A DNA stretch of 64,000 nucleotides, taken from an uncultured Dokdonia sp. (GTDB lineage: Bacteria > Bacteroidota > Bacteroidia > Flavobacteriales > Flavobacteriaceae). The notes below the pieces were generated by a model, which was not told where the DNA came from, searched no databases, and saw only the letters and a program-made list of their open reading frames with translations. Both the position numbers and the translations under genes were made by a program. The stretch covers positions 62,001 through 126,000 of the forward strand of contig CANNDF010000002.1 in assembly GCA_947503305.1 (NCBI GenBank), given 5' to 3'. How positions within the stretch are numbered: position 1 is the stretch's first letter; each line of letters opens with the position of its first letter. This document shows positions 6,829-48,150 of the stretch, one piece after another.

Positions 6829-8067
6829 ATGCAAAAGATAATTTTTACTATTCTATTATTTGCTTTCTTTTCTTGTACAAAAGAAAGACCAGTTACTGTT
6901 TCTATGAAAGATGATGTGGTTTTTCTGGCTTCAGATGATATGCAAGGTCGTGAGACGGGCACAGAGGGTGAACGTAAAGCAGCTTCCTATATTAAAAATC
7001 GTTTTAGTACCATTGGACTTACTCCTATGGGTAATGACGATACGTATTTTCAAACATTTTCATTTGCTCCAAAAAATGACCCACATGGAGAAGTACGCTT
7101 TCGCGAAAGCGGAAACGACACACTAATTACGGGTACAAATGTGATAGGATACTGGAATAATAACTCTGATAATACTATAGTAATAGGTGCTCATTATGAT
7201 CATTTAGGTCTAGGAGGGGAAGGGTCTTTGCATAGAGATGGAGAGGTTATACATAATGGTGCAGATGATAATGCGAGCGGAGTAGCAATTATGTTACATC
7301 TCGCACAAGAATTGCAGGAAGATATTTATAAAGGAAACAATTATTTGTTTATTGGTTTTTCTGGAGAAGAAATGGGCTTACTAGGATCAAATTATTTTAC
7401 CAAAAATGCAACGATAGATCTAAGTTCGGTTAATTATATGATTAATATGGATATGGTAGGCCGTCTCAATGAAGAAAGAACATTGGCAGTACATGGGGTA
7501 GGTACATCACCTCTTTGGAGTCAGACAGTTTTTGCAGCAAATACAGATTTTAAACTTGCAGAGCATGAAAGTGGTGTAGGCCCTTCTGATCATACGTCTT
7601 TTTATCTTAATGACATCCCTGTATTACATCTATTTACTGGACAGCATGAGGATTATCATAAGCCAGGTGATGATAGTGAAAAACTCAATTATGAGGGGAT
7701 GGAGTCTATTAAAAAATATATAAAAGACATTATTGCTGAGTTAGATGATAATGGTAAAATAAAATTCACAAAAACAAAAGATGAGAGTTCGGCAGTGCCT
7801 AGCTTTAAAGTAGGCTTAGGGGTTGTACCTGATTATTTGTTTTCTGGAAAGGGGATGCGTATTGATGGTGTAAGTGAAGGTAAAGCTGCTCAAAATGCAG
7901 GACTTCAAAAAGGAGATATCGTCATTAAGATGGGTGATAGTACGGTTGTAGATATGATGAGTTATATGCGTGTACTTTCTACGTTTGATGGAGGTGATAA
8001 AACGACAGTAATTATTGATCGTGACGGAGAAAAAATAGAGAAGGATATAGAATTTGTAAAAGATTAA
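6829..8067 (+). CDS. M28 family zinc aminopeptidase lipoprotein with C-terminal PDZ domain
   Basis: 412 residues. Lipoprotein signal MQKIIFTILLFAFFSC. The metallopeptidase core shows the M28 zinc ligands: GAHYDHLG (His/Asp), HNGADDNASG (bridging Asp), GFSGEEMGLLGS (general base Glu and zinc Glu), NMDMVGRL (Asp) and HEDYHKPGD (last His). A PDZ domain covers about 318-405 (GLGVVPDY, AAQNAGLQKGDIVIKMGD). It should release N-terminal amino acids from peptides in the periplasm or outside the cell. Codons at 7097-7110 are a perfect copy of the genome palindrome, read as F-R-E-S, in the segment before the catalytic core. Confidence 0.93.
   Translation: MQKIIFTILLFAFFSCTKERPVTVSMKDDVVFLASDDMQGRETGTEGERKAASYIKNRFSTIGLTPMGNDDTYFQTFSFAPKNDPHGEVRFRESGNDTLITGTNVIGYWNNNSDNTIVIGAHYDHLGLGGEGSLHRDGEVIHNGADDNASGVAIMLHLAQELQEDIYKGNNYLFIGFSGEEMGLLGSNYFTKNATIDLSSVNYMINMDMVGRLNEERTLAVHGVGTSPLWSQTVFAANTDFKLAEHESGVGPSDHTSFYLNDIPVLHLFTGQHEDYHKPGDDSEKLNYEGMESIKKYIKDIIAELDDNGKIKFTKTKDESSAVPSFKVGLGVVPDYLFSGKGMRIDGVSEGKAAQNAGLQKGDIVIKMGDSTVVDMMSYMRVLSTFDGGDKTTVIIDRDGEKIEKDIEFVKD
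7097..7110. repeat. Genome palindrome GCTTTCGCGAAAGC, copy 1 (intragenic)
   Basis: Perfect 14-bp copy, extended to 16 bp as CGCTTTCGCGAAAGCG. Inside the M28 peptidase gene, read TTT-CGC-GAA-AGC. Confidence 0.9.
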
Positions 8068-8092
8068 TTTGCTTACTTTAATAAAGGTATAA

Positions 8093-9088
8093 ATGGCAAA
8101 AATAGGAGATATAGACGTTGGAGATTTTCCGTTATTACTGGCTCCAATGGAGGATGTAAGCGACCCTCCGTTTCGTGCTTTATGTAAAGAGCAAGGCGCA
8201 GATGTTGTGTATACAGAATTTATATCATCAGAGGGCTTGATACGAGATGCGGCTAAGAGTGTGATGAAGTTGGATATCTATGAGAAAGAAAGACCTGTGG
8301 GAATTCAGATTTTTGGAGCTGTATTAGATTCTATGCTTAAAAGTGTAGAAATTGTAGAAGCGAGTGGTCCAGATATTATAGATATCAATTTTGGGTGTCC
8401 AGTTAAGAAAGTAGTTTCAAAAGGAGCAGGAGCTGGTATTTTGAAGGATATTGATCTTATGGTGAAACTTACGGAAGCTATGGTAAAACATACAAAGTTG
8501 CCAGTAACTGTTAAAACACGTTTAGGATGGGATCATGATAGCATACGTATCGTAGAAGTTGCTGAGCGTTTACAGGATGTTGGGTGCGCTGCTATCTCTA
8601 TACATGGTCGCACACGAGCACAAATGTATAAGGGTGATGCAGACTGGCGTCCCATTGCTGAGGTAAAAAATAATCCAAGAATGCATATTCCTGTATTTGG
8701 TAATGGTGACGTAAATACTCCTGAACGTGCTATAGAAATGCGGGATACTTATGGGCTTGATGGTGCTATGATAGGTAGAGCTTGCATAGGCTATCCTTGG
8801 TTTTTTAATGAAGTGAAACACTTTATGAAAACGGGAACACATAAAAAACCTCCAACATTACAAGAGCGCGTTTCTGCAGCTCGCAGGCATTTACAAATGT
8901 CTATAGATTGGAAAGGTGAAACCTTAGGTGTTTTTGAAACACGTAGGCATTATACAAATTATTTTAGAGGCATTCCACATTTTAAAGAATATCGGATGAA
9001 ACTAGTTACTAGTGATCGTAGTGAAGATGTCTTTACAGCATTAGATATAATCGAAAAAGAATTTATTGGGTACGAATTTGTACGCTGA
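8093..9088 (+). CDS. dusB: tRNA-dihydrouridine synthase (DusB type)
   Basis: 331 residues. FMN enzyme that reduces specific uridines in the D-loop of tRNA using NADPH. Motifs in order: LAPMEDVSDPPFRALC, EFISSEGLI, GCPVKKVVSKGAGAG (with the catalytic Cys of the N-x-G-C-P motif), TVKTRLGWD, ISIHGRTRAQMYKGDADW, GNGDV and GRACIGYPWFF. It starts 25 nt after the M28 gene and may be co-transcribed with it. It converges on the permease gene, with 3 nt between the stops. Confidence 0.95.
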   Translation: MAKIGDIDVGDFPLLLAPMEDVSDPPFRALCKEQGADVVYTEFISSEGLIRDAAKSVMKLDIYEKERPVGIQIFGAVLDSMLKSVEIVEASGPDIIDINFGCPVKKVVSKGAGAGILKDIDLMVKLTEAMVKHTKLPVTVKTRLGWDHDSIRIVEVAERLQDVGCAAISIHGRTRAQMYKGDADWRPIAEVKNNPRMHIPVFGNGDVNTPERAIEMRDTYGLDGAMIGRACIGYPWFFNEVKHFMKTGTHKKPPTLQERVSAARRHLQMSIDWKGETLGVFETRRHYTNYFRGIPHFKEYRMKLVTSDRSEDVFTALDIIEKEFIGYEFVR

Positions 9089-9091
9089 TTT

Positions 9092-10300
9092 TTAAAGATT
9101 ATTGTACAAAAATCGTTTGTTAATTCTGCTAGAAGCAAGTTTTGCTGCAAGTATACCTAAAACAAAAATGGTTGTATATACTAGAAATAGATTTGTAATT
9201 TCAAACTTTACTGGGTAGGCGAGTGAAGCTGTAATCCTTACCAATGAAAATTGTTGCTGTAGAAATACGATAATAACTCCAATTAGAATTCCTAATGCGC
9301 CACCTATCACAATCATTAATGCGCCTTGATAAAAGAAGGTTCTTCGTATTTCTGCTAAAGTAGCACCTAGATCTGAAAGGGTTTTTATATGTTTCCTTTT
9401 ATCAATTATTATCATAATAATGCTCCCTATGAAACTAAAAAGTGCGATAATAAGAACTAGGGTACAAATAAAATAGAGTGCAAGGTTTTCTGTATTGAGC
9501 ATTTTATACAGTGCATCATTGAGCTCTGTTCTATTTTTTATAATAATAGTATCTCCAAAAATTTCTTTTATAGAAGAGCGAATATTTTCTTCAGCTACAT
9601 TAGGATTTAATTTGATTTCTAAAGTGCTTACTGTATTAACGGGATAATCTAAAAGCCTGCCTATAAAATCTATGTTTGTAAATAAATGGTCATTATCTAA
9701 GGACTCTCCCGCCTGAAAGATGCCACTTGCAACGGCACTTGAACTACTAAAAGCCTGACTAGGATCTGTGATTTGACCCGTTCCTGGTTTTGGAACCATA
9801 ATTTTAAGTAAATTACCATAATCACTGATTCCAAGAGATAAACGCCTTCGTATTCCATAACCTATTGCTACTTCAGGTTCGTCTATACTAGGCCATTTAC
9901 CTGCAAATATGGTAGTGTCTACGTTATTTACTTTTAAATAATTTTCATCGACTCCTTTTATAAAGGCTAGATGTGTCTTTCCATCATATTCTAGATAGGC
10001 ACGTTCTTCTATGACTTTTGAAACATATGCAATTCCTTCTAAATCTGTGATTGCTTTTTGCTGACCATCTAAAAGTGTAATGGTCTTTCCAGAACTGGGT
10101 AATAGTTTAAGATCTGGATCTACAATAGAAGTAACAGCAACATTAAAATCTTTAAGTCCAGAAAATGCAGAGAGTACTATAAATAGTACAGCTGTTCCTA
10201 TAATGATACTTATGATAGAGATAAGTGTAATAATATTGATAGCATTGGTTCCACTTTTTGAGAAGAGGTAGCGCTTTGCAATATATAGTGGGAATCGCAT
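9092..10300 (-). CDS. ABC transporter permease of the FtsX/LolC-E type
   Basis: 402 residues. An N-terminal membrane helix (about 22-52) follows the Lol-type start FPLYIAKRYLFSKSGTNAIN. A periplasmic domain of about 220 residues comes next, then three helices near 275-300, 325-350 and 370-392. That is the 4-TM topology of FtsX/MacB/LolCE permeases. The best guess is a lipoprotein-release (LolE-like) subunit; no ATPase is adjacent. The ATG directly abuts the rbfA stop (TAA then ATG), so translation is coupled to rbfA. Confidence 0.85.
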   Translation of the reverse strand: MRFPLYIAKRYLFSKSGTNAINIITLISIISIIIGTAVLFIVLSAFSGLKDFNVAVTSIVDPDLKLLPSSGKTITLLDGQQKAITDLEGIAYVSKVIEERAYLEYDGKTHLAFIKGVDENYLKVNNVDTTIFAGKWPSIDEPEVAIGYGIRRRLSLGISDYGNLLKIMVPKPGTGQITDPSQAFSSSSAVASGIFQAGESLDNDHLFTNIDFIGRLLDYPVNTVSTLEIKLNPNVAEENIRSSIKEIFGDTIIIKNRTELNDALYKMLNTENLALYFICTLVLIIALFSFIGSIIMIIIDKRKHIKTLSDLGATLAEIRRTFFYQGALMIVIGGALGILIGVIIVFLQQQFSLVRITASLAYPVKFEITNLFLVYTTIFVLGILAAKLASSRINKRFLYNNL

Positions 10301-10693
10301 TTACGATTTTTTTCTTTTCTCTAATAGCGTAGGATCTTCCAGTGGGTTATCTCCGCCTTTCAATGATTTATCTATCTCTTCCATATATTCTAAAGAATCG
10401 TCTATATAAAATTGCAGTTCAGGCATACGTCTCAGTTGATGACGTGTAAGCTGCGAGATACGATGTTTGATGGTAGACTTTACTAGATTTACTTCTTCAA
10501 GAATGCTTTTAGCTTGAGCGTTAGGAAAAACACTCATATATACTTTTGCTATAGATAAATCTGTTGGGACTTTTACTTTTGAGACAGATATGATAATCCC
10601 TGACTGACCATTGTCTCGTAAGGCACTTTGTAATACCTGAGCAAGATCTTTCTGTAAAACGCCTGCTACTTTTTTCTGTCTATTTGATTCCAT
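10301..10693 (-). CDS. rbfA: 30S ribosome-binding factor RbfA
   Basis: 130 residues, family-typical. Single KH-like domain protein acting late in 16S rRNA maturation and cold adaptation. It starts MESNRQKKVAGVLQKDLAQVLQ; the helix-kink-helix region is near 60-95 and RRMPELQFYIDDSLEYMEEID is the conserved C-terminal strand/helix. The ATG at 10693 was chosen over 10708 because the -7 box (10698-10705) overlaps the longer form. The first base of transcription may be at or next to the start codon (leaderless). Confidence 0.95.
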   Translation of the reverse strand: MESNRQKKVAGVLQKDLAQVLQSALRDNGQSGIIISVSKVKVPTDLSIAKVYMSVFPNAQAKSILEEVNLVKSTIKHRISQLTRHQLRRMPELQFYIDDSLEYMEEIDKSLKGGDNPLEDPTLLEKRKKS

Positions 10694-10697
10694 GATA

Positions 10698-10705
10698 CAA
10701 AAATA
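10698..10705 (-). promoter_or_regulatory. -7 box of rbfA-permease operon
   Basis: On the minus strand this reads TATTTTTG, an exact TAnnTTTG, only 4 nt before the rbfA ATG. This implies a leaderless or nearly leaderless mRNA. Confidence 0.65.
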
Positions 10706-10761
10706 CATTATTTATAGATTGTAGTACTTTTGTAATACTAATGTTTTCATAGAAGGTATGT

Positions 10762-10775
10762 GCTTTCGCGAAAGC
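10762..10775. repeat. Genome palindrome, copy 2 (intergenic)
   Basis: Perfect GCTTTCGCGAAAGC, 18 nt upstream of the methylmalonyl-CoA epimerase ATG, in the gap between divergent rbfA and mce. Confidence 0.9.
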
Positions 10776-10793
10776 GTAATATAAAATACACCA

Positions 10794-11204: not shown

Positions 11205-11209
11205 ATTCT

Positions 11210-11240
11210 TTTGTTGAGTAAGGGAATTGTTATAAATTTG
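11210..11240 (+). promoter_or_regulatory. Promoter of tRNA-Met
   Basis: TTTG at 11210-11213, a 19-nt spacer, then TAAATTTG at 11233-11240. This is a textbook Bacteroidota promoter 11 nt upstream of the mature tRNA. Confidence 0.8.
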
Positions 11241-11251
11241 CACCCGTTTTT

Positions 11252-11325: not shown

Positions 11326-11450
11326 CTTTTTATAAAAAAAAATAAACCCATCATACTTTGTAAATAGCTGAAATTCTAGTTTTTGCAGATATGATGTTTT
11401 TTTATTCCTATTTTTTAATTAATTTTTTTTAAAAAAATAGAGGTGTTTAT

Positions 11451-11549: not shown

Positions 11550-11555
11550 CAGTAT

Positions 11556-11795: not shown

Positions 11796-11798
11796 ATA

Positions 11799-12447: not shown

Positions 12448-13509
12448 ATGAAGAGAGATCAAAAAATAAAAGTCGGAATATCTATAGGTGATATTAATGG
12501 AATAGGCGTAGAAATTATTCTCAAGACTTTTGAGGATCCTATGATGTTGGATTTTTGTACCCCCATTCTTTTTGGTTCTGTTAAGGTATTGTCTTTTGTA
12601 AAAAAAGGACTTGGAAGTCAAGTAGCATTACATGGTATAGATACTCTTGAAAAAGTGATAGATCATAAAGTAAATGTATATAATGTTTGGAAAGAACCTG
12701 TTAAAATAGAATTTGGTGAGGCTACAAAGGAATCTGGAGCATATGCATTGAAGTCTTTTACTGCCGCAGTAAAAGCCCTTAAAAATAATGCTATAGATGT
12801 TTTAGTTACTGCGCCCATTAACAAAACAAATATTCAATCAGATACCTTTACATTTCCAGGCCATACGGATTATTTAGCTCAAGAACTAGAAGGGGATGCG
12901 ATGATGCTTATGATTACAGATACACTTAAGGTAGGCTTATTGACAGATCATGTTGCAGTAAAAGATGTAGCGTCTCATATAACACCAGAATTAATTACAA
13001 AGAAAGTAGAAACACTGTATAAAACCCTGCAAAGTGATTTTGGAATTACTAAGCCTAAAATAGCTTTACTAGGGATTAACCCTCATGTAGGTGATCACGG
13101 AGTTATAGGAGTTGAAGATGATGTAGTTATGATTCCTACATTAGAAAAAATAAGAGAAACAGGAAAGATTATATACGGTCCTTATGCGGCCGATAGTTTT
13201 TTTGGTTCTGGTAACTATAAAAATTTTGATGCCATACTAGCAGCTTATCACGATCAAGGACTTATTCCTTTTAAAACACTTTCTTTTGGGAAAGGGGTTA
13301 ATTATACAGCTGGGTTAGATCATATACGAACCTCTCCAGATCATGGGACAGCATATGAGATTGCAGGGAAGAATACTGCAGATCCAAATTCTTTCAGAGA
13401 GGCTGTATTTGCAGCTATAGATATTTATAAAAAAAGGAATGGATATAAGGTTTTGACAGAGAATGTATTGAAAATTTCTCCAAGAAAATCGGGAGGGAGA
13501 GGTAGATAA
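12448..13509 (+). CDS. pdxA: 4-hydroxythreonine-4-phosphate dehydrogenase
   Basis: 353 residues. NAD-dependent metalloenzyme of the DXP-dependent pyridoxal 5'-phosphate pathway. Key segments: VGISIGDINGIGVEI, VTAPINKTNIQ, FPGHTDYLAQEL and DHVAVKDVASHI (metal/substrate His), GINPHVGDHGVIG, and AAYHDQGLIPFK with the conserved HDQGL. The C-terminal tail KISPRKSGGRGR is a basic extension. Confidence 0.96.
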   Translation: MKRDQKIKVGISIGDINGIGVEIILKTFEDPMMLDFCTPILFGSVKVLSFVKKGLGSQVALHGIDTLEKVIDHKVNVYNVWKEPVKIEFGEATKESGAYALKSFTAAVKALKNNAIDVLVTAPINKTNIQSDTFTFPGHTDYLAQELEGDAMMLMITDTLKVGLLTDHVAVKDVASHITPELITKKVETLYKTLQSDFGITKPKIALLGINPHVGDHGVIGVEDDVVMIPTLEKIRETGKIIYGPYAADSFFGSGNYKNFDAILAAYHDQGLIPFKTLSFGKGVNYTAGLDHIRTSPDHGTAYEIAGKNTADPNSFREAVFAAIDIYKKRNGYKVLTENVLKISPRKSGGRGR

Positions 13510-16097: not shown

Positions 16098-16135
16098 GCC
16101 CTTGCGGGTATTTTAATGTAGTTGAGTAGGAGACC

Positions 16136-16149
16136 GCTTTCGCGAAAGC
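16136..16149. repeat. Genome palindrome, copy 3 (between accB and accC)
   Basis: Perfect GCTTTCGCGAAAGC in the 86-nt accB-accC gap. No T-run follows, so it is not a normal terminator. Confidence 0.9.
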
Positions 16150-16183
16150 AAAACCCTCACAATTCACAATAAATTGAACACCT

Positions 16184-20653: not shown

Positions 20654-20676
20654 ATTTTCACGAAAGTGAAGGTATA

Positions 20677-22374: not shown

Positions 22375-23688
22375 TTACGCTTTCGCAAAAGTGTTTTCAC
22401 TCTTATAAGCGCTTAGAATCTCTTTTTCAAAATGTTTGTAAAATTCAGGGTCAAAATTTGCTGTTGCTAAGTTTTCCATCACATAATCAGAACTACGTTC
22501 TTCTGTAAGCCATCTGTCAAAAACTTCATGACGCATCCGAATTCCAAAAGTGTTGATTCCTAAAAATTTACCTGTACCTACTTCTGTAGCAACAGTAATA
22601 CATTTTGTATCATCCTCATGTTTCCAATGGAAAAGCTGTTGATGCTCCATATTACTACGCTCGCTAAAAACCCATCCATAGGTTTGATATTCTATATCTA
22701 AGAACTTTGCGCTATTAAACCAATGTCCAGGTTTGTATTCTATACGATTACCGCATAGTGTTTGTGCTACTGTTTCTCCCATCATACGTCCTGTATACCA
22801 TACGGCTTCAATAGGACGTCTCATGCCTATACCTTCATGTTGCTCTGCACAATCACCTACGGCATATATATCAGGAATATTGGTTTCTAGGTAACGATTT
22901 ACTTTTATACCTCGTCCTAATTCTATACCGCTATCTTTTAAGAAATCTATATTTGGCGATACTCCAGCAGTTAATCCTACAAAATCACAGGCAAGTTCTT
23001 CTCCAGTTTCTGGAATAACAACTGCGCGAGCACGACCATTTTCATCGGCAATAATTTCTTTAAGGTTTGTACTTAATCGTAAATCTATATGGTGATTTAA
23101 TATATGACGATTAATCATTGCACTTTCTCCTGCAGGTAATACGCCATTCCAAAAGCTTTCTTCACGTACCAAAAAGGTAACAGGAATATTACGAGAATTA
23201 AGCATCTCTGCAAGTTCTATACCTATAAGACCTCCACCCACTATAACAGCTCGTTTACAGACTTCATTATTTGGCGCATACTCTTCTAATGCATCCAAAT
23301 CTTGTTTTGAGTACATGCCCCGAACTCCTTTTAAGTCTTGCCCAGGCCAACCAAATTTATTAGGTTTTGAACCTACAGCAAGTACAAGTTTGTCATATGC
23401 CATTGTACTACCATCGGCAAATTGTAGGTTCTTATTTGCATGATCTACGTTTTCTACAAAAGCATTTTTAAGATCGATACGGTTTTTCTTCCAAAAATAG
23501 TCTTCGTACGGTTTGGTATGCTCAAACTTCATATGTCCCATATAGATATACATAAGTGCTGTACGGGAAAAGAAATGATCGGTTTCGGCAGAGATAATGG
23601 TAATTCTTTTGTTAGATAGTTTTCGGATGTGGCGGGCAGTAGTAACGCCAGAAATTCCGTTACCTATGATAACGATGTGTTCTTCCAT
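22375..23688 (-). CDS. FAD-dependent NAD(P)H oxidoreductase (ferredoxin/rubredoxin reductase-like)
   Basis: 437 residues from MEEHIVIIGNGISGVTTARH. First Rossmann site IIGNGISG near residue 6, second NAD(P)-binding site VVGGGLIGIELAEML near 150, and the FAD-binding C-terminal motif PDIYAVGDCAE near 285. No Fe-S or CxxC redox motif, so it resembles the reductase of rubredoxin/ferredoxin systems. It likely feeds or drains the polyferredoxin encoded 63 nt downstream. A longer frame from 23754 exists, but the shorter ATG gives a standard N-terminal beta strand. The last codons (AFAKA) contain a diverged palindrome copy (22379-22392). Confidence 0.85.
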   Translation of the reverse strand: MEEHIVIIGNGISGVTTARHIRKLSNKRITIISAETDHFFSRTALMYIYMGHMKFEHTKPYEDYFWKKNRIDLKNAFVENVDHANKNLQFADGSTMAYDKLVLAVGSKPNKFGWPGQDLKGVRGMYSKQDLDALEEYAPNNEVCKRAVIVGGGLIGIELAEMLNSRNIPVTFLVREESFWNGVLPAGESAMINRHILNHHIDLRLSTNLKEIIADENGRARAVVIPETGEELACDFVGLTAGVSPNIDFLKDSGIELGRGIKVNRYLETNIPDIYAVGDCAEQHEGIGMRRPIEAVWYTGRMMGETVAQTLCGNRIEYKPGHWFNSAKFLDIEYQTYGWVFSERSNMEHQQLFHWKHEDDTKCITVATEVGTGKFLGINTFGIRMRHEVFDRWLTEERSSDYVMENLATANFDPEFYKHFEKEILSAYKSENTFAKA

Positions 23689-25792: not shown

Positions 25793-26797
25793 ATGAATAC
25801 TGATATACGCATTTTCTTAGTAGTATTATTTATTGGGATGCAAAGTTGTACATCTCAAACGGAAAAAATTAATGGAATCAGTTTTGTGGCTTCTAGAGAT
25901 AAAGCGACACAAGAGCATATAGTTCCTGTACAAAATATAGGGGCAAATTATGCAGCAGTAATGCCTTTTGGTTTTATACGTAGTCTGGATAACCCCGATA
26001 TAGTTTATAATACAGATAGACAGTGGTATGGTGAACGTAGGGATGGGGCAAAAGAGTATATCAAGTTATTACAGCGTAATAATATCAAGGTATTATTAAA
26101 ACCACAAATATGGATATGGAGAGGAGAGTATACGGGGTATCTCAAAATGGAAACCGAAGATAAATGGAAACAGCTTGAAGAGTCTTATCGCACATTTATT
26201 ATAGATTATGCAAAACTGGCTCAAGAAACAGAAGTCTCTATGTTTTCTATAGGTACTGAACTTGAGCAATTTGTAATTAATAGGCCTGACTATTGGGGAG
26301 CATTAATAAAAGAGATAAAGACCATATATAAAGGCAAACTTACGTATGCATCAAATTGGGATGAATACAAAAGAGTTCCTTTTTGGGATGCTATGGATTA
26401 TGTAGGGATAGATGGTTATTTTCCGTTATCAGAATTACAAACTCCTACAGTTGAGAGCGCGAGACAAGGATGGCAATGGTGGAAAGGAGAACTATCTACT
26501 TTTGCAAAAACAAATGATAAGCAAATCCTCTTTACAGAATGGGGATATCGTAGTGTAGATTTTGCAGCTAAAGAACCATGGGTGTCAGATAGGTCTCAAA
26601 CGGGAGTAAATCTAGAAGCACAAGCAAACGCGACTAAAGCAACTCTAGAAGAATTATGGAAAGAAGAGTGGTTTGCAGGAGGTTTTATCTGGAAATGGTT
26701 TATTCATCATGATAGATCAGGAGGAAGTGATAATAATCGCTTTACTCCACAAAATAAACCTGCAGAAATAGTAATAAAAGAATTTTATGCGCAGTAA
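25793..26797 (+). CDS. GH113-like glycoside hydrolase lipoprotein
   Basis: 334 residues. Lipoprotein signal MNTDIRIFLVVLFIGMQSC. TIM-barrel glycosidase with the likely acid/base Glu in MFSIGTELEQF (about 162) and the nucleophile Glu in ILFTEWGYRS (about 250). LLKPQIWIWRGEYTG and DYVGIDGYFPLSE are further conserved loops. GH113 enzymes are beta-mannanases; the substrate here is unproven. The stop overlaps the next start by 11 nt, so the two lipoproteins are translationally coupled. Confidence 0.8.
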   Translation: MNTDIRIFLVVLFIGMQSCTSQTEKINGISFVASRDKATQEHIVPVQNIGANYAAVMPFGFIRSLDNPDIVYNTDRQWYGERRDGAKEYIKLLQRNNIKVLLKPQIWIWRGEYTGYLKMETEDKWKQLEESYRTFIIDYAKLAQETEVSMFSIGTELEQFVINRPDYWGALIKEIKTIYKGKLTYASNWDEYKRVPFWDAMDYVGIDGYFPLSELQTPTVESARQGWQWWKGELSTFAKTNDKQILFTEWGYRSVDFAAKEPWVSDRSQTGVNLEAQANATKATLEELWKEEWFAGGFIWKWFIHHDRSGGSDNNRFTPQNKPAEIVIKEFYAQ

Positions 26798-27530
26798 AAA
26801 CATCTTGTATATTATAGTACTTATCCTTACTTCCTGTGAGTCTGATGATACAAATAATAATGAAGTTTTTACAGAGACCCTTGCCACATTAGTTGCTCAA
26901 AATACCATTGAAATAGATAATGTAATTGCTTGCGCATCAGGATCCGAAAATCCTGATGAAATTATTGCTTATGTATATCCTCGACCTGGTGCCTCTGACA
27001 TACGTTATTTTGAAACTGAAAATACAACAGTAGATAAAAACGATTACGCAAACTATGTTCAGATAGCGTTACCTGCCGAAGATTTTTTTAATGGTTATCT
27101 TAAAACATTTACGAGGCAAACAGCTGTAGAAAAATGGGTAATTATAAGCTTTCGCGAAAGCGGAATCCTTCATCTGTCAAATCCTATTCGATTAAAACAC
27201 CAATCACAAAATACCAGTTTTAGTACAAATGTAGATATCAATCAAGAAGTGGTAGGGTCCCCTCTTTTTAAGTGGGAAGCTATTGTGCAGTCAGAAGATG
27301 CCATCTATTTTCAAGTAATTTCTGATGGAGCAAATGAACTGCTATCTGGCACCTATACATTTGAACCTCAATTTAGGTATTATGAATTGGATAATGTTGT
27401 ACTTAATATCACAGAAGAGATTCCACCAAGTCTTATCAATAATACAAATTATGGCTTTACACTCATGGCTGTAAGTGAAGATAATTGGGTCAATACTTTT
27501 ATATCAACATCGTTTATAACTGCATTCTGA
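26787..27530 (+). CDS. Hypothetical lipoprotein
   Basis: 247 residues; family not recognised. Lipoprotein signal MRSKNILYIIVLILTSC, then an Asp/Asn-rich stretch (ESDDTNNN) and a mainly beta C-terminal region. It overlaps the GH113-like gene by 11 nt, so it probably acts with it, for example as a glycan-binding or scaffold partner (inference). A perfect palindrome copy (27148-27161) is read as S-F-R-E-S-G near residue 122, as in the M28 peptidase. Confidence 0.65.
   Translation: MRSKNILYIIVLILTSCESDDTNNNEVFTETLATLVAQNTIEIDNVIACASGSENPDEIIAYVYPRPGASDIRYFETENTTVDKNDYANYVQIALPAEDFFNGYLKTFTRQTAVEKWVIISFRESGILHLSNPIRLKHQSQNTSFSTNVDINQEVVGSPLFKWEAIVQSEDAIYFQVISDGANELLSGTYTFEPQFRYYELDNVVLNITEEIPPSLINNTNYGFTLMAVSEDNWVNTFISTSFITAF
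27148..27161. repeat. Genome palindrome, copy 4 (intragenic)
   Basis: Perfect GCTTTCGCGAAAGC inside the hypothetical lipoprotein gene, frame TTT-CGC-GAA-AGC. Confidence 0.9.
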
Positions 27531-34022: not shown

Positions 34023-34036
34023 GCTTTCGCGAAAGC
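34023..34036. repeat. Genome palindrome, copy 5 (at araC 5' end)
   Basis: Perfect GCTTTCGCGAAAGC. On the minus strand it follows A-T so as to create an in-frame ATG (34038-34036), 33 nt before the preferred start. Confidence 0.9.
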
Positions 34037-35244: not shown

Positions 35245-36360
35245 CTAAGGAAGCTTTGATTTTAGGGCGCTGGGGGCATTTCCTGTAATTTTCTTCACAG
35301 CACGATTAAAAGAAGCTTTAGAGTTGAAGCCAGCGTCATATGCGAGTGCTAAAAGGGTATATTTCTCATTTTTAGGATCCTGTAATAAACGTTTTATTTC
35401 TTCGATACGAAGCTCGTTTATATAGTCTGTAAATTTTTTGTTGAGAATAGTATTTAGTGTTTTGGTAAGAAGATAGGGTTTTGTGTTTAGCTTTTGCGAA
35501 AGCGTACCCAAAGTAAGTTCTGGATCTTTATATAATGCTTGAGATAGCATTACATTTTGAAGTTGTGTTGCGATGTTTTCTAGTTGTTCTCGTTCTCCAT
35601 CAGAAAGTACCACGGTTTCTTTAAAGGCCTGATCTTTACGACGCGTAAATCCTTCAAGCCCTAACCAATAGGTGATAACTGCCATAATGATAAAAATAGG
35701 ATACCCAAAAAAGTTAAAAGCATAATCAAAAAAGAGAAAATCAATTGCTGTAGTGAGTGTAAAAATCACTGAGAAAATAACAAGTGCAATTACCACACGA
35801 TTGATCCATTGAAGTTTTCCTTGAATTAATTTATACCCTTCTGGTGTAGGCGGGTTTTTGAGTAATTTCCAAGAGATAAAGCTATACCATAGGATAAGCG
35901 CACCACTTATTATATACATTGTGGGGTAGTGCATCCATGCCATATACCCATAATATCCTAACCATGAAAGGCTTTCTCGTGTGCCATCCCAATAGAAATT
36001 CTGCGCTTTTATAAAAAAGCTCCATAAAACCTCAATAATTACAGGTATAAAATGGATCCAATATCCTCGTTTCCATTTAAAATTGGGAAGGGTGTAACTA
36101 CGCACAAAAAAGTAAATAAGTGCACCGTATATCCAATTCATTTCTAGAAAAAAGTAGTAGAATACATCATACCTGCCTAGTCCAAAGAAATGACATATTT
36201 CAACGATAAGACGATACGAAAAGAAAAAGAGAATGGTAGCTAAAAAGCGATTTGCTACTCTGTGTATAGTTGCTGTTTTCCATAAAGCAATACCATATAC
36301 AATACCTTGTATTGCACCAATGGCGAGTAACATGACAAGAAGTACTACTTTAATTTCCAC
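35245..36360 (-). CDS. Membrane-anchored AraC-family transcriptional regulator
   Basis: 371 residues. Seven hydrophobic N-terminal helices over about 240 residues (LLVMLLAIGAIQGIVYGIAL, WVLWSFFIK region, VIALVIFSVIFTLTTAIDFL, IFIIMAVITYWLGLEG). An AraC DNA-binding domain covers about 265-370 (ELTLGTLSQKLNTKPYLLTK, LAYDAGFNSKASFNRAVKKI). Architecture and helix sequence resemble 19316-20491. Codons 35490-35503 are a one-mismatch palindrome copy, within the helix-turn-helix region. It may control the downstream 34648-34084 operon. Confidence 0.87.
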   Translation of the reverse strand: MEIKVVLLVMLLAIGAIQGIVYGIALWKTATIHRVANRFLATILFFFSYRLIVEICHFFGLGRYDVFYYFFLEMNWIYGALIYFFVRSYTLPNFKWKRGYWIHFIPVIIEVLWSFFIKAQNFYWDGTRESLSWLGYYGYMAWMHYPTMYIISGALILWYSFISWKLLKNPPTPEGYKLIQGKLQWINRVVIALVIFSVIFTLTTAIDFLFFDYAFNFFGYPIFIIMAVITYWLGLEGFTRRKDQAFKETVVLSDGEREQLENIATQLQNVMLSQALYKDPELTLGTLSQKLNTKPYLLTKTLNTILNKKFTDYINELRIEEIKRLLQDPKNEKYTLLALAYDAGFNSKASFNRAVKKITGNAPSALKSKLP

Positions 36361-39629: not shown

Positions 39630-40411
39630 AGTGTTCAGAAATAGAAAATAAATTAATTGCTTATATCGAAGATGATCTTACTATAGAAGAGGCTCAGTAT
39701 ATTGAAAAGCATATAGATCATTGCGAAGACTGCAAGCAAGAACTCGTATTTCTAAAACAAATACTAGGAGGATTCGAAGCTATAGAAAGAAAACAGCCCA
39801 GTGATAAAGTGCGTGAAGGTTTCTTAGCGTCTTTGGAAGAAGAAAAACTTGTGAGTTCTAAGGTTGTTACCATTCAAAATGAGAATACTTTTCCCTGGAA
39901 AACGGCTTTTCAAATAGCTGCATCTGTATTATTACTTATAGGGGGGTATGCATTAGGTAGCTTTCGCGAAAGCGTAAAAAGCACATCACAAATAGCTGTG
40001 CTACAAGAAGAAACTTCTGAGCTTAAACAAAATGTAATGCTTGCTATGTTGGATAATAAATCTGCAAGTAAACGTATTCAAGCTGTAAATTTTTCGGAAG
40101 AAATAGTAATGCCAGAAACAAAGGTTTTAAGCGCTCTTATAGATAGGTTGCATTATGATGGAAATATTAATGTCAGAATAGCAGCTGCAGAAGCACTTTC
40201 AAAATATTCAGAAAATATGCATGTCAAAGATGCATTTATAAAATCACTAACCATTGAAAAAAACCCAAACATTCAAATTGCTGTGATACAGTTTTTGGTA
40301 AAAGTTCAGGATAAACGCGCGCTTGTTCCAATGCAAGAGTTATTGGATCAAACTGAAACACCAAATTATGTAAAAGAGCAAGTAAATAAGGGAATCCAAA
40401 AATTTATTTAA
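39626..40411 (+). CDS. Anti-sigma factor with zinc finger, TM helix and HEAT-repeat tail
   Basis: 261 residues. N-terminal anti-sigma zinc-finger (zf-HC2-like) with HIDHCEDC at about 28-35 (HxxxCxxC), one TM helix near 95-112 (AFQIAASVLLLIGGYALG), then HEAT-like helical repeats (NVRIAAAEALSKY, NIQIAVIQFLVKV, RALVPMQELL) in the periplasm. HEAT repeats as the sensor part are uncommon in anti-sigma factors. A perfect palindrome copy (39960-39973) is read S-F-R-E-S just after the TM helix. Confidence 0.88.
   Translation: MKCSEIENKLIAYIEDDLTIEEAQYIEKHIDHCEDCKQELVFLKQILGGFEAIERKQPSDKVREGFLASLEEEKLVSSKVVTIQNENTFPWKTAFQIAASVLLLIGGYALGSFRESVKSTSQIAVLQEETSELKQNVMLAMLDNKSASKRIQAVNFSEEIVMPETKVLSALIDRLHYDGNINVRIAAAEALSKYSENMHVKDAFIKSLTIEKNPNIQIAVIQFLVKVQDKRALVPMQELLDQTETPNYVKEQVNKGIQKFI
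39960..39973. repeat. Genome palindrome, copy 6 (intragenic)
   Basis: Perfect GCTTTCGCGAAAGC in the anti-sigma gene, frame TTT-CGC-GAA-AGC, immediately after the TM codons. Confidence 0.9.
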
Positions 40412-43226: not shown

Positions 43227-44195
43227 TTAGCAACAACCTCCTCCATCATAATGAAAAGTAGATTCACTTATAAAAATATCAGTACGGCCTAAATCGGCAA
43301 TTGCTTTTGCGGTTTTATCACAGATTGCCAATGGCTGATTTTTGAGTAAAACATGGCCCTTTTTATCATCAAAATAATCTTCACTACCATAATATATTGC
43401 TGCTTTTCCAGTAAAAATACAAGGCCCATCTTCAGGCATAGGGTCTTTAATAGCTGCTACTTCTATAGACTCTATGTATATAAGTTCATCTGTAGGATAA
43501 CTTTCCGGATTGAGAATACGATATGGCTTGCGGGCACGTATTTCAATAGTTCCAAACCCTACATCTGTGAGCGCTTTTACATATTCGTTTATAGGCAAAC
43601 TCCCACTTAAACATAAAGCGCGTAATCGATCATCATTGCGTAAAGTCTCATTCATAGGTTGTTCACAGGTTGGATCACTCATTACAAGACGGCCATGAGG
43701 TTTAAGTACACGGTACATCTCTTCTATAGCTCTTTTAAGGTCTTCTGCTTTGAAAATATTGAACAAGCAATTTTGAGCGGCTACATCTATAGAGTTGTCC
43801 TCTACAGGAAGGTTGAGAGCGTCTCCTTTTTTAAGGTCTACAAACTCACTTTTGAACCAAGGATTCATTTCTTCGGCTTCGATGAAGTTTTTACGAGATG
43901 CTTCTAACATCTCATCAACGACATCTACACCTACAACACCTCCTTTAGTACGATTGAAGTATGAAAACTGTAATAATTCCATACCGCCTCCTACACCTAC
44001 ATATAGCATTTTAGGCTCATTAGTAAGATCTCTTGCATTTACAGTACTCCCACAACCATAATTCATTTCTTGCATGATTCTTGGTATTTTAAGTCCAGGA
44101 AGTTCCCATATAGGATTGGTGGTACAACAAAGCCCTACATCTGGTGTTAAGGCAGCTTCTTTATATACATCTACTGTGGCATCTAAGTAACTCAT
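43227..44195 (-). CDS. arsM: Arsenosugar biosynthesis arsenite S-adenosylmethionine methyltransferase
   Basis: 322 residues. SAM-binding core MLYVGVGGGMELLQF near 64-78, GVVGVDVVDEMLE, and VEDNSIDVAAQNCLFNIFK, with cysteines placed as in ArsM: GLCCTT (23-24), MNYGCGS (48), QNCLF and ALCLSG. The C-terminus ends GGGCC, a Cys pair that can bind As(III). The family methylates trivalent arsenic; in arsenosugar clusters it supplies dimethylarsenite to ArsS. It is the last gene of the cluster, 58 nt after the purine nucleoside phosphorylase. Confidence 0.9.
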   Translation of the reverse strand: MSYLDATVDVYKEAALTPDVGLCCTTNPIWELPGLKIPRIMQEMNYGCGSTVNARDLTNEPKMLYVGVGGGMELLQFSYFNRTKGGVVGVDVVDEMLEASRKNFIEAEEMNPWFKSEFVDLKKGDALNLPVEDNSIDVAAQNCLFNIFKAEDLKRAIEEMYRVLKPHGRLVMSDPTCEQPMNETLRNDDRLRALCLSGSLPINEYVKALTDVGFGTIEIRARKPYRILNPESYPTDELIYIESIEVAAIKDPMPEDGPCIFTGKAAIYYGSEDYFDDKKGHVLLKNQPLAICDKTAKAIADLGRTDIFISESTFHYDGGGCC

Positions 44196-44253
44196 AGTTT
44201 TTATTTAAATTGTTAGGGGGGCTTAACAAATACTTATTGTTATTTGCCCATTT

Positions 44254-45066
44254 TTATAATGTTTTTATTAATTCTGAAAAAAGTGTAATCATTTTTGGTT
44301 CAGCCTTGGCGGCCATTGCAATAATTTCTGGAATGTTTACAGGTTCTAAATGATCAGGATCGCATTCGTCTGTAAGTACGGATACAGCAATCACAGGTAA
44401 TTTTAAATGATTTGCCACAATGATTTCTGGTACAGTACTCATTCCAACAGCATCTGCTCCTATAATTTTGAGATATCGATATTCTGCCCTCGTTTCAAGT
44501 TGTGGTCCTACTACTGATGCATATACTCCTTTGTGAAGATGAATTCCTTCTGTAGAGGCAATACTTTCTAATCGATTGTTTAATGTTGCATCATAAGGAG
44601 CACTCATGTCTGTAAAACGCTCTCCCAATTTATCGACTCCTTTAAAAGCTAGAGGAGAACCTCCTTGTAAATTAATATGATCATCTATAAGCATTAATTC
44701 TCCTTTTTTGAAGTTGAGGTTAATGGCTCCTGCGGCATTGGATACGAGAAGATGTTTGATCCCTAATGCATGCATAATGCGTACAGGAAAGGTAACGTCT
44801 GTAAGAGAATATCCTTCATATAAATGAAAACGACCTTGCATTACAATAACTTTTTTTCCCTCCAATGTTCCATAGATTAATTTTCCTGTATGAAACTCTA
44901 CAGTTGCCGTAGGGAAATTTGGAATATGATTATAGCTCACCTCCTTAAGGATTGTTATTTTATCTATAAGCTGGCCGAGTCCTGTACCTAAAATGATACC
45001 TATTTCTGGGGCATCTATTCCTTTTTTTTGTAAATACTCTGTGGTTTCGGTAATAATTTTTATCAT
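44254..45066 (-). CDS. Purine-nucleoside phosphorylase (trimeric family)
   Basis: 270 residues. IGIILGTGLGQLIDKI, VMQGRFHLYEGYS (GRxHxYEG phosphate/ribose site), LLVSNAAGAINLNFKKGEL, GVYASVVGPQLETRAEYRYL and VGMSTVPEIIVANH. It releases purine base plus ribose-1-phosphate. Asp stands in SVLTDECDP where 6-oxopurine enzymes carry Asn, so adenine or 6-aminopurine acceptance is conceivable. Start is 2 nt after the DUF2064 gene stop. Its position inside the arsenosugar operon suggests cleavage of adenine from the arsenosugar nucleoside (inference). Confidence 0.9.
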   Translation of the reverse strand: MIKIITETTEYLQKKGIDAPEIGIILGTGLGQLIDKITILKEVSYNHIPNFPTATVEFHTGKLIYGTLEGKKVIVMQGRFHLYEGYSLTDVTFPVRIMHALGIKHLLVSNAAGAINLNFKKGELMLIDDHINLQGGSPLAFKGVDKLGERFTDMSAPYDATLNNRLESIASTEGIHLHKGVYASVVGPQLETRAEYRYLKIIGADAVGMSTVPEIIVANHLKLPVIAVSVLTDECDPDHLEPVNIPEIIAMAAKAEPKMITLFSELIKTL

Positions 45067-45068
45067 AA

Positions 45069-45707
45069 TTAGCTGGTTATTTTGGCACTTCTTATAGGTG
45101 TGTATATATTAAACTCTGGGTAAGGTCTTAAGTCTTCTACATGATCGATATCATTAAGTTCTTCTAATACCTCTACAGAAAATGATTCTAAATCTTTTAA
45201 AGTGTCTTTTAAAACAGAATCTTCTCCCCACTTTTTATTTTTAAATACGCCAGGAATCATAGTAGTCATACCCAGTAAATAATATCCTCCATCTTTTGCT
45301 GGTCCTATTACAGTATCAGCTTGTGATAGCGCCGTAAAGGCTTGGTCTATATGGTATGGTCTTAGGTCATAAAGATCACTCCCAATGATAATCACTTTTT
45401 TATATCCGTCAGAAAAGGCTTGTCTGAACGCATTTTCTATACGTTGTCCTAAATCTTCACCTTCTTGTGCAAACTTTTCAAAAAGGGTGCCTTCCCAAAT
45501 ATCATGTTCTCCTATAGTTTCAGAGTATCCTACACGCTTTGTGGCGTTATTCTGTATTACTACATCATGAGTGTGTTGTAGTAATTTTATGTATATATCT
45601 AAGGCATTTTTTTGCCCGATACTTTTAGCAAGTCTTGATTTTACTTTTCCTAACTCAGGATTTCGTGTAAAAATAAGGAGTAGATTATCTTGATTTTTTT
45701 TACTCAT
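45069..45707 (-). CDS. DUF2064 / TIGR04282-like arsenosugar-associated transferase, copy A
   Basis: 212 residues. Begins NLLLIFTRNPELGKVKSRLAK (F.[KR]xPxxGxVKTRL nucleotide-transferase loop), then QRIENAFRQAFSDGYKKVII and IGSDLYDLRP (GSDxPxL metal site, with Asp conserved), VIGPAKDGGYYLLGM (GPxxDGGYxLxG). The family resembles MobA/CofC nucleotidyltransferases and travels with the arsenosugar radical SAM gene. Second DUF2064 copy at 46331. Confidence 0.88.
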   Translation of the reverse strand: MSKKNQDNLLLIFTRNPELGKVKSRLAKSIGQKNALDIYIKLLQHTHDVVIQNNATKRVGYSETIGEHDIWEGTLFEKFAQEGEDLGQRIENAFRQAFSDGYKKVIIIGSDLYDLRPYHIDQAFTALSQADTVIGPAKDGGYYLLGMTTMIPGVFKNKKWGEDSVLKDTLKDLESFSVEVLEELNDIDHVEDLRPYPEFNIYTPIRSAKITS

Positions 45708-45722
45708 TTATATATAAATAGG

Positions 45723-46211
45723 TTAGTTGTTGTATACTTTTATTCCTGTACGTATGTACTTTTTCCATTCTTTACTAAATACATGAACACTATCTGTAGG
45801 TTTATTTTGAGCGTTGAGTACTGGATACCCATTATCTTTCCATGCGAAAATACTTCCGTATAGGTTGTGTACATTGGTATACCCCTGTTCCTGTAAACGC
45901 TCGCCAAAATCTTCAGAGCGTATCCCTATTGAGCAATAGACTACTATAGGTTTGTTTTTTTCTGGATATAAACTTTCAAAAGAAGTATTTGGGTTTTCCC
46001 CACTCCATATGGCAGTAGGGATATGACTCACGTCATATTCTTCTTTTTTTCGAGTGTCCAATACTATATAATCTTTGAGGTGATTATATAGCTTATTTAC
46101 AGAAATATAAGGCACGCTTTGCGTATTGTATTCTTTTAACAGCGCATCCACAGTTTCCTGAGATAAAACAGGAAAAGAGATAAATAGTAAAATAGAGAAG
46201 TATGCCTTCAT
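45723..46211 (-). CDS. Secreted rhodanese-like sulfurtransferase
   Basis: 162 residues. Signal peptide MKAYFSILLFISFPVLSQ, rhodanese domain with VLDTRKKEEYDVSHIPTAI and the catalytic Cys in VVYCSIGIRSE near residue 101, then FAWKDNGYPVLN. Periplasmic or surface sulfur/arsenic thiol chemistry is possible. It lies between the two DUF2064 genes, 15 nt upstream of copy A. Confidence 0.87.
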   Translation of the reverse strand: MKAYFSILLFISFPVLSQETVDALLKEYNTQSVPYISVNKLYNHLKDYIVLDTRKKEEYDVSHIPTAIWSGENPNTSFESLYPEKNKPIVVYCSIGIRSEDFGERLQEQGYTNVHNLYGSIFAWKDNGYPVLNAQNKPTDSVHVFSKEWKKYIRTGIKVYNN

Positions 46212-46234
46212 CAGTACATATGTTAAACCTCTAG

Positions 46235-46340
46235 CATTCCTTTTTTTAGATGAGGAATGTAATTTGTATAATTAATTATTGTCGACCGGATATATGTGCA
46301 ATGCACATTATGTATTCTTGTAGGTAGATATCAAGAATAC
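46235..46340. repeat. Three inverted repeats in the rhodanese-DUF2064 intergenic region
   Basis: CATTCCT/AGGAATG (46235-46259), ATGTGC-AAT-GCACAT (46294-46308) and GTATTCTTG/CAAGAATAC (46312-46340). None is followed by a clear T-run. They may split the cluster into two transcription units or bind a regulator. Confidence 0.5.
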
Positions 46341-47032
46341 TTTACTAAAGGAGAACCTTTATTAAAATGAAGTTTAAAAAAGAGTATATTGATGTAATTC
46401 TGTATCGTAGTAAGATTCGTTTTGACTTTTGATACTAGTGTTTCTAATATTTCCCTAAGTGTATAGGTAATAAATAGCCTTTCGTTAAGAATCCTATCGA
46501 TATCGTAGATTACATCAATATCGGATAGCGATTTAAGAAGCAAGAATTTAGGTTTCTTATTTGCTTCTGAAGTAGTAGAAATATTTTTTATGAATTGTTG
46601 CGCAAGTTCATGGGTTTGCCAGGGTAATTGCTCAAAAGTGGTAGGATCAAATTGAGAATTATGTATTCCCATAAGATAGAACCCTCCATCTTTTGACGGG
46701 CCTAAAATAAGTGAGTTTTCTTCTAATAATTGTGCAGTGTTACGTATATCACTCGCTTGTAAATGGGGAGTGTCATTACCAATAGTAATTACATTTTCAT
46801 ATCCTTGAAGATATACATATTGTATAGCATTTGTGAGTCGCTGGCCAAACGTTTCTCCATATTGTTCATTTTCAGAAATATGAAAATAGGGCAGCGCTGT
46901 TTTCTTTACAATAGAGAGGGTATGAGTATTTAACTGTGTAAATAGCTTTTCTGCATTAGGGATAGGCTTAGTGATCGCTTCCTTGAAAGCAGATTGTGCA
47001 AAAACTAATATAGCAGTTTTACCTTGTTTCAT
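46331..47032 (-). CDS. DUF2064 / TIGR04282-like transferase, copy B
   Basis: 233 residues, longer and more divergent than copy A. Keeps QRLTNAIQYVYLQGYENVIT, IGNDTPHLQ (GNDxPxL in place of GSDxPxL) and LGPSKDGGFYLMGI. The first loop (AILVFAQSAFKEAITKPI) lacks the GxVKTRL arginine motif, so nucleotide chemistry may be impaired or changed. It starts 3 nt after arsS and shares its operon. Confidence 0.82.
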   Translation of the reverse strand: MKQGKTAILVFAQSAFKEAITKPIPNAEKLFTQLNTHTLSIVKKTALPYFHISENEQYGETFGQRLTNAIQYVYLQGYENVITIGNDTPHLQASDIRNTAQLLEENSLILGPSKDGGFYLMGIHNSQFDPTTFEQLPWQTHELAQQFIKNISTTSEANKKPKFLLLKSLSDIDVIYDIDRILNERLFITYTLREILETLVSKVKTNLTTIQNYINILFFKLHFNKGSPLVKYS

Positions 47033-47035
47033 TTT

Positions 47036-48091
47036 TTAAGCAACCGTACCTTGACAACTACTACCAGCTCCGGCAGTACATCCATAGCAATGCTGTGATA
47101 TTACGATATTACGATTATTAATAATTTCTTCATTATAATTTGCGATATGTTTAATCTTTGAATTTACTTTTAATCCAAGCATTTGATTAAAATCACAGTC
47201 ATATAACCATCCATCCCAACTTATAGAGATCGTATTTGTACACATTACATTTGCTACAGCCATAGGATTGTAGGCATCTACAAGTTGATACATATAATCT
47301 TCATAATTTTCTGAGGCTATAAGATAATCCAAAAATCTGGCAATTGGTAAATTTGTAATTGCAAACAGATTATGGAATTGTATTCCAAAATCTTCCATCA
47401 GTGCTTTTTTGAAATCTTTTTCCATACTGGCCTGATCTCCAGGTAAAAATGCTCCCGAAGGATTGTAAACAAGATCCAAGCGCAATTCACTATCAGGCAT
47501 TCCGTAACCTACTGCATTTAATTCTTGGAGTGCTTTGATAGACTTATCAAAAACACCATCGCCACGTTGTTTATCTGTCTTTCCTTTGGTCCAGTGTGGC
47601 ATGGAAGAGATCACATGTACATTGTGCTTTTTGAAAAATTCTGGTAAGTCGTAGTATTTTTTATTGGCTCTTATAATCGTAAGATTACTACGTACAATAA
47701 AGTCTTTAATTCCAGCTTTACTAGCCTCTTCTACAAACCTTCTGAAGTTTGGATTCATTTCTGGAGCTCCTCCAGTGAGATCTAGTGTATGTGCTCCTGT
47801 ATTACGTATTACTTCTAGACATAATTCCATAGTTTCCCATGTCATGATCTCTTTACGATCTGGCCCCGCATCTACATGACAGTGATCACATACTTGATTA
47901 CACATATAGCCTACATTAATTTGTAGGATTTCTAATTTTCGAGGACGTAAGGGAAACTGTTGTGTTTCTTTTATTTTATCGGCAAAGGTAGGAAGCTCGC
48001 CATTTTTGAAAATGCCATTAGAGAGTATTTCTAACTGTCTATTTGCATCGGCAAGTTCGTTCCCCGTTTTTTTAAGCGATTTTGTGGCCAT
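47036..48091 (-). CDS. arsS: Arsenosugar biosynthesis radical SAM protein
   Basis: 351 residues. Radical-SAM cluster motif CNQVCDHC at residues 64-71 (CxxxCxxC) after EILQINVGYM, DLTGGAPEMNPNFRRFVEEA, LRLDLVYNPSGAFLPG, and a Cys-rich C-terminus CYGCTAGAGSSCQG. Known family role: makes 5'-deoxy-5'-dimethylarsinoyl-adenosine from ArsM product and SAM. Some homologues use selenocysteine in the C-terminal tail; here only Cys codons are present. Confidence 0.92.
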   Translation of the reverse strand: MATKSLKKTGNELADANRQLEILSNGIFKNGELPTFADKIKETQQFPLRPRKLEILQINVGYMCNQVCDHCHVDAGPDRKEIMTWETMELCLEVIRNTGAHTLDLTGGAPEMNPNFRRFVEEASKAGIKDFIVRSNLTIIRANKKYYDLPEFFKKHNVHVISSMPHWTKGKTDKQRGDGVFDKSIKALQELNAVGYGMPDSELRLDLVYNPSGAFLPGDQASMEKDFKKALMEDFGIQFHNLFAITNLPIARFLDYLIASENYEDYMYQLVDAYNPMAVANVMCTNTISISWDGWLYDCDFNQMLGLKVNSKIKHIANYNEEIINNRNIVISQHCYGCTAGAGSSCQGTVA

Positions 48092-48130
48092 AATTAATCC
48101 ACTTTACAGTGGGTATTTTTTATTGATACG

Positions 48131-48150
48131 TACGCTTTCGCGAAAGCGTA
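48131..48150. repeat. Genome palindrome, copy 7, extended to 20 bp
   Basis: Perfect 20-bp palindrome TACGCTTTCGCGAAAGCGTA in the arsS upstream gap, 4 nt from the end of the peroxidase-like gene. Longest copy in the window. Confidence 0.9.

Follow-up and report, generated by a model that had tools for sequence, protein, structure and literature searches.

The stretch of DNA analysed here, a 64-kb window (bases 62001-126000) on contig CANNDF010000002.1 of an uncultured Dokdonia sp. (coordinates below are those of the window), carries seven perfect copies of the 14-bp palindrome GCTTTCGCGAAAGC, each where an original prediction, made from the sequence alone, had placed it. The sites are given without strand. 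The copy at 7097..7110 lies within an aminopeptidase/PDZ-like open reading frame (ORF) and is read there as RFRES, while those at 27148..27161 and 39960..39973, the latter in an anti-sigma-factor-like ORF, are both read as SFRES; the orthologues of the first two in a related genome (G011) have a copy too. The site at 10762..10775 has a divergent ORF on either side, with starts 53 bp and 18 bp away, and the one at 16136..16149 occupies the accB-accC spacer, where it is perfect in 13 of 15 other Dokdonia neighbourhoods (the exceptions being G005 and G012). At 34023..34036 the palindrome overlaps the predicted start of a minus-strand AraC-family ORF, whose true start is uncertain, and at 48134..48147 it lies 6 bp past the stop of an arsenosugar-associated peroxidase and 42 bp ahead of arsS.

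Less exact copies are found at 362..375 and 35490..35503 (one mismatch), as predicted, and at 1425..1438 and 22379..22392 (two mismatches); the site at 1425 had been counted among the one-mismatch copies, while that at 22379 had rightly been called more diverged. Two other diverged forms, proposed at 20656 and 59065, are beyond two mismatches of the 14-mer: the sites there, starting at 20655 and 59063, match only the inner 12-mer, at two mismatches, and may be due to chance. This 12-mer has 14 matches in the window at up to two mismatches, against a mean of 1.82 in shuffled sequence. For the full 14-mer at the same stringency there are 11 sites, whereas in 100 dinucleotide shuffles the mean was 0.08 and the maximum 1, which bears out the predicted excess over chance.

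The palindrome is a true genome-wide repeat. In the whole genome (4.26 Mb), which its proteins place in the Flavobacteriaceae, it occurs 570 times in perfect form while the reversed control is absent, and a 464-kb sample of it holds 60, far over the <0.15 expected from Markov models of order 1-5. Every other 14-base palindrome occurs at most twice in the sample. In the motif-rich genomes described below, the density is about 130-275 copies per Mb, or roughly one per 4-8 kb. Here and in what follows, genes are calls made by ORF length, orthology is assigned by BLAST and samples are parts of genomes. The prediction was thus right about the repeat and about its presence both within and between genes, which holds genome-wide; the mobile element that it allowed for is not supported, and it had noticed neither the 20-bp extension and the strand-biased arms nor the even spacing and the likeness to uptake sequences.

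The 14-mer belongs to a larger unit of about 52 bp, consisting in Dokdonia of the palindromic consensus TACGCTTTCGCGAAAGCGTA and an arm of about 19 nt on each side; an example is the site at 16117..16168, with a 19-nt left arm, the core and a 19-nt right arm (arm length taken from per-position base counts over 158 copies). The left arm is poor in C and the right arm poor in G, for genic copies in all three frames and for intergenic copies in all orientations. The C/G fractions of the left arm are 0.07/0.26 in the window genome, 0.06/0.24 in Dokdonia donghaensis (G016), 0.13/0.30 in G230 and 0.08/0.24 in G281, and those of the right arm are 0.25/0.07, 0.26/0.07, 0.30/0.17 and 0.27/0.06, respectively. 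The edge of the core varies by lineage, being TAC..GTA in Dokdonia and T(C/T)C..G(A/G)A in genus g11, with the core and arms in common (G281 sample). The arms do not form a longer hairpin, as the two arms of a copy fold no better together than swapped arms do. We regard the symmetric arms as the strangest feature of the site: if the DNA broke at the centre, the 3' ends on either side would be G/T-rich, an arrangement that has no counterpart in the extracts of the papers cited below.

Copies are strongly enriched between genes. Intergenic sequence makes up 8-11% of the total by simple ORF calls, yet it holds 27 of 60 copies in the window genome (p 7e-13), 60 of 100 in D. donghaensis (1e-36) and 23 of 43 in G281 (8e-12); the enrichment is weak in G230 (5 of 23, p 0.036). 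In the window genome and D. donghaensis together, 73 of 158 copies are genic, and 14 of these 73 lie in codons 1-32, where a share of 0.087 is expected (p 0.004). Among the 58 intergenic copies of the same two genomes that lie between tandem genes, 20 start at most 10 bp past a stop codon while 2 end at most 10 bp from a start; 36 are closer to the stop (p 0.087).

Their spacing is more even than random. The coefficient of variation (CV) is 0.48 over the first 326 kb of contig 1 of the window genome and 0.61 over the first 67 listed sites of D. donghaensis, against 0.97-0.98 for random placement; these statistics use listed sites, a subset of the 570 copies of the window genome and of the 899 in D. 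donghaensis. When all 100 listed sites of the window genome are taken, the CV rises to 1.15 because of large empty stretches, and gaps shorter than 2 kb number 3 where 19.9 would be expected. A reader protein that controls its own gene might have that gene marked by a close pair of sites; the closest pair there, 237 bp apart, consists of a copy in a class-V aminotransferase ORF and one directly ahead of an mfd-like ORF. In D. donghaensis copies occur in all 20 tiles sampled, at 1-7 per 20 kb, with the lowest counts near 2.04-2.23 Mb. One 63-kb stretch of the window genome (contig C1, 326-390 kb; L131-L134) has no palindrome at all. Within it lie four integrase-family recombinases, an ORF resembling a conjugation coupling protein, a D12 methyltransferase and genes of very high AT content; nine of its ORFs were scanned, and an RHS-repeat match there is under the Pfam cut-off. 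The stretch looks like a mobile island.

Conservation at orthologous positions in close relatives, on which the prediction had staked itself, is strong. All 14 bases are kept in 412 of 516 orthologous pairs, whereas ten control 14-mers from these alignments are kept in 7-19%; the pairs, which are not mutually independent, derive from 60 query sites in the neighbourhoods compared, with no fewer than 150 aligned bp on either side. Under a looser rule (15 bp per side), 418 of 522 pairs are perfect, and of the other 104, 73 are free of gaps at the site and 31 are gapped. The accB-accC site is perfect in 14 of 16 Dokdonia (window genome included) and is lost in G005, whereas G012 (L147) has GCTTTTGCAAAAGC there, with both halves changed symmetrically and the palindrome kept. 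Perfect copies outnumber one-mismatch copies by 60 to 13 in the window genome, 100 to 8 in D. donghaensis, 43 to 9 in G281 and 23 to 10 in G230.

The pdxA gene (assigned by Pfam; 12448-13509 in the window) has such a site in some genomes and lacks it in others. Ten relatives carry it in frame (AFAKA), G005 with one mismatch, while pdxA of the window genome, G011, G014, G007 and G017, as well as six loci of five other genera, has other codons there and is gap-free in the aligned block; for G017, BLAST places a gap of one to two columns at the site. In this one gene, the site was gained or lost in place by substitution, without an indel.

The genome scans, which covered the phylum, place the palindrome in few lineages. 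In a set of 59 genomes that includes the window genome, all 18 Dokdonia carry it in 369-905 copies; of the remainder, G027 has 578, G029 has 6 and 39 have none. An evenly drawn survey of 397 genomes of the family found a match in 80 and none in 317. Six of the 80 have 408-857 copies (two Dokdonia, three of genus g11, and G230), so that only two genera beyond Dokdonia are copy-rich (408-664 copies), and 74 have 1-19. A survey of 395 genomes of the phylum, 354 of them outside the family, gave one copy in each of 8 of those 354 and none in the others. The palindrome is absent from all 80 named accC neighbourhoods of other flavobacteria (each up to 21 kb). At least 120 stretches were matched in a viral scan; among the 80 listed, most look like chance single copies and four have 2-3. 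The 14-mer occurs in no paper of the open-licence PubMed Central, and the part of the strain PRO95 paper drawn on here (PMC3587595) mentions neither palindromes nor competence. G230, which represents the third motif-rich genus (L385-L394), has a G+C content of 0.45, a lower excess of perfect copies and the weaker intergenic enrichment given above; it is perhaps a younger or a fading case.

Where other genera have low counts, the copies are often clustered. In five genomes (G118, G127, G141 and G254 of the family survey and G200 of the phylum survey) two copies lie exactly 933 bp apart, and in the two genes checked, of G118 and G127, both copies fall in a single ORF of an outer-membrane efflux family beside an AcrB-family pump, with a heavy-metal P-type ATPase nearby in G118. 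Five pieces from motif-poor Flavobacteriaceae (L175, L176, L178, L179 and L182, of G127, G376 and G118) have the palindrome in coding genes of efflux-pump or metal-ATPase regions. We infer that these regions passed through motif-rich hosts. Over 446 kb of motif-poor pieces, chosen around perfect copies, 41 copies are perfect and 14 have one mismatch.

Some further observations concern the window and other loci. In the window, G+C drops to 0.282 at 56001-60000 from 0.33-0.36 elsewhere, and the final 16 kb has no perfect copy; this end was possibly acquired recently. The arsS radical-SAM ORF adjoins the arsenosugar-associated peroxidase ORF at 47036-48561, with a palindrome copy between the two, and the ORFs at 49133-51637 (834 aa) and 26787-27530 (247 aa) match nothing in NCBIfam at E 0.001. 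Across 80 named loci (6.7-21 kb each, with L135-L154 covered incompletely), no other filtered 12- or 14-base palindrome occurs more than twice, and four 12-mers occur twice; palindromes of 8-10 bases reach 6 occurrences in the named loci of other genera. In L081 (Flavobacterium circumlabens), GTTTTAAAAC occurs 5 times in 21 kb against 0.08 expected from base composition and is perhaps another repeated palindrome. The contig L048, filed under a Candidatus Nitrotoga metagenome-assembled genome, groups with Flavobacterium on a tree of AccB and AccC and is probably mis-binned.

The genomic pattern, with its indel-free gain or loss in pdxA, its absence from a foreign-looking island and its presence in some metal-efflux regions of motif-poor relatives, may be read as that of a self-recognition signal spread over the whole genome, of the type of DNA uptake sequences but palindromic. 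We hold this reading, which is drawn from sequence, to be the likeliest, with a probability of roughly 0.45. Given the symmetry of the site, the receptor would probably be a dimer. It would bind the ~52-bp site on DNA of the same or a related species, and DNA bearing the site would be taken up, and recombined into the chromosome, in preference to other DNA. In each round, perfect copies would then take the place of damaged or missing ones. Copies might in this way build up wherever they are tolerated, that is between genes, just past stop codons and near protein N-termini, to a density of one per 4-8 kb or so, and the core would come to be common to related genera, with small differences at its edge. 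Uptake sequences are described, in the extracts of PMC1626085 (this and the other papers being drawn on here in part), as evenly spaced, preferring non-coding DNA but with many coding copies, and present in related taxa; an excess of perfect over one-mismatch copies is given there as typical of them, unlike regulatory binding sites, and they are argued not to be insertions. The palindrome shows every one of these listed genomic traits. A preference for own DNA, with no signal identified, is also reported for Riemerella columbina (PMC7965970), which its authors place in the Flavobacteriaceae, and ComEC, the DNA-import channel, is present in all 33 genomes searched.

Several points weigh against an uptake signal. 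ComEC is equally present in all 18 motif-poor genomes examined; the import channel therefore exists but does not discriminate the motif-rich genomes. The site is a perfect palindrome with symmetric arms, whereas known uptake sequences are non-palindromic (PMC1939737) and denser, near one per kb (PMC1626085), and the excess of perfect copies is not universal even among them, as the uptake 10-mer of A. pleuropneumoniae has 438 perfect and 947 one-mismatch copies (PMC1939737). On the tree of AccB and AccC (two genes; 119 rows, one of 120 having been dropped as it had no match), the motif-rich label needs three changes, in Dokdonia, g11 and G230. These call for a receptor that was gained or transferred repeatedly, or else for many losses, although a single origin could still be compatible with the tree, given its weak deep branches. 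The analysis found no receptor or reader protein, and the open-licence PubMed Central yielded no report of natural transformation in Dokdonia. Finally, strong selection for binding sites at even intervals would produce the same genomic traits as well.

Such selection is what a second explanation invokes: a lineage-specific chromosome protein needing one site per few kb, either architectural or acting at a site of recombination initiation or repair control. We consider it possible but doubtful. The perfect symmetry fits a dimeric binder of double-stranded DNA, and the even spacing and site-by-site conservation agree with such a role, as do the strand-biased arms, which flank copies in genes and between genes in the same way. 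If a break or a stop occurred at the palindrome and 5' resection set in, each side would be left with a 3' tail rich in G/T and poor in C, a kind of tail that RecA probably favours. In addition, all 15 motif-rich genomes tested have parS-like sites (at most one mismatch to the parS consensus), against 5 of 18 motif-poor ones, a difference that may reflect no more than the pattern chosen but would be a link to the segregation of chromosomes. On the other hand, regulatory protein-binding sites are usually relaxed in their consensus (PMC1626085), and chi in Escherichia coli has 8855 one-mismatch against 1008 perfect copies (PMC1939737). The presence of copies in every D. donghaensis tile is also unlike systems bound to the origin or terminus. 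A ParB paralogue was considered as the reader and set aside: a ParB_N match is found in 56 of 59 genomes, mostly one, and no second ParB is conserved, a second match being limited to 5 of 18 Dokdonia and 3 motif-poor genomes, with none in the window genome. The palindrome is likewise unlikely to replace parS, as each of the 11 Dokdonia tested has parS-like sites, at 1-3 per genome (the reversed-pattern control gave 1 in G011).

A highly iterated palindrome (HIP) like HIP1 of cyanobacteria, made and kept by a repair bias linked to methylation, appears quite improbable. The resemblance is real: both are palindromic, with hundreds of copies, many of them genic, and a strong consensus. The HIP1 10-mer of Synechocystis has 5648 perfect and 1830 one-mismatch copies (PMC1939737), and some cyanobacteria replace it by alternative HIPs (PMC4390886). 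Yet every HIP-rich genome is reported to have a predicted matching methyltransferase, and HIP density is 1000-2000 per Mb (PMC4390886), many times that of the Dokdonia palindrome. Methyltransferases were searched for as PF00145, PF01555 and PF02086 in 33 genomes, 15 of them motif-rich, and none of these families is common to all 15: PF00145 (C5 methylase) is in 6, PF02086 in 9 and PF01555 over the cut-off in 2 (in none of 11 Dokdonia), while G006, G009 and G281, with 757, 808 and 664 copies, have none of the three over the cut-off. Fourteen fixed bases plus arms would also exceed an ordinary methylase site. The earlier suggestion of a methylation target is weakened by these results.

A short mobile or RNA-level palindrome, whether a repetitive extragenic palindromic (REP)-like element, a terminator or an mRNA hairpin, is very improbable: the palindromic form, the enrichment between genes, the cluster of copies just past stop codons and the gapped minority of imperfect orthologous pairs would suit it, but the site in pdxA changed by substitution, nearly half the copies in two genomes are genic and most imperfect pairs are gap-free, which rules against an inserted, mainly intergenic element, while the swapped-arm folds, the lack of a T-run and the copies inside likely operons (accB-accC) and within the arsenosugar gene pair make a terminator unlikely, as had been predicted.

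Uptake signals were not known outside the Pasteurellaceae and Neisseriaceae as of 2006, according to the part of PMC1626085 used here. If the palindrome is truly such a signal, the known range gains a phylum, a symmetric design and a marine host that can be cultured and has complete PacBio genomes, and it becomes directly testable how a preference for self-DNA arose in Flavobacteriia. If its role is instead in chromosome organization or recombination, its density and strictness would probably be out of the ordinary for such sites. Under either reading, the palindrome may mark DNA long resident in such hosts and could help to trace horizontally moved islands in marine Flavobacteriaceae.

Known systems resemble the palindrome in different respects. 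The sites of parS, Noc, SlmA and MatP are palindromic and bound by DNA-binding proteins, but they are known in tens at most and are clustered by chromosome region, whereas the Dokdonia palindrome has hundreds of copies, found in all 20 tiles sampled. Chi sites, directional signals for an enzyme of the RecBCD/AddAB type, are spaced a few kb apart. The palindrome shares with chi this spacing and a strand-biased base composition; chi, however, is short, non-palindromic and, by its ratio of perfect to one-mismatch copies, weak in consensus (PMC1939737), and the same ratio therefore groups the palindromic 14-mer with HIP1 and the strict uptake sequences, away from chi. HIP1 and the alternative HIPs are likewise palindromes of strong consensus, in and between genes and of unproven function, but the Dokdonia site is longer (14-20 bp plus arms), sparser and, in three of four sampled genomes, strongly intergenic. 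We do not class it with the uptake signal sequences (USS) of Pasteurellaceae or the DNA uptake sequences (DUS) of Neisseriaceae, because it is palindromic and because uptake is something we infer. A bolder version, which we think unlikely, is a new design of signal for self-DNA or recombination: a dimer would bind the core, the strand-biased arms would yield G/T-rich 3' single strands after resection, and the reader would have moved between genera of Flavobacteriaceae, each host genome being rewritten with several hundred copies. The site departs from USS and DUS in its palindromic form with symmetric arms, its 14 fixed bases, its frequency of one per 4-8 kb rather than per kb and its occurrence in another phylum; as far as the extracts describe them, it shares with them hundreds to thousands of copies, the usual excess of perfect ones, even spacing, a preference for non-coding DNA, an origin other than insertion and variants in related taxa, and the USS of Haemophilus influenzae, like the Dokdonia site, has flanking motifs (PMC1626085).

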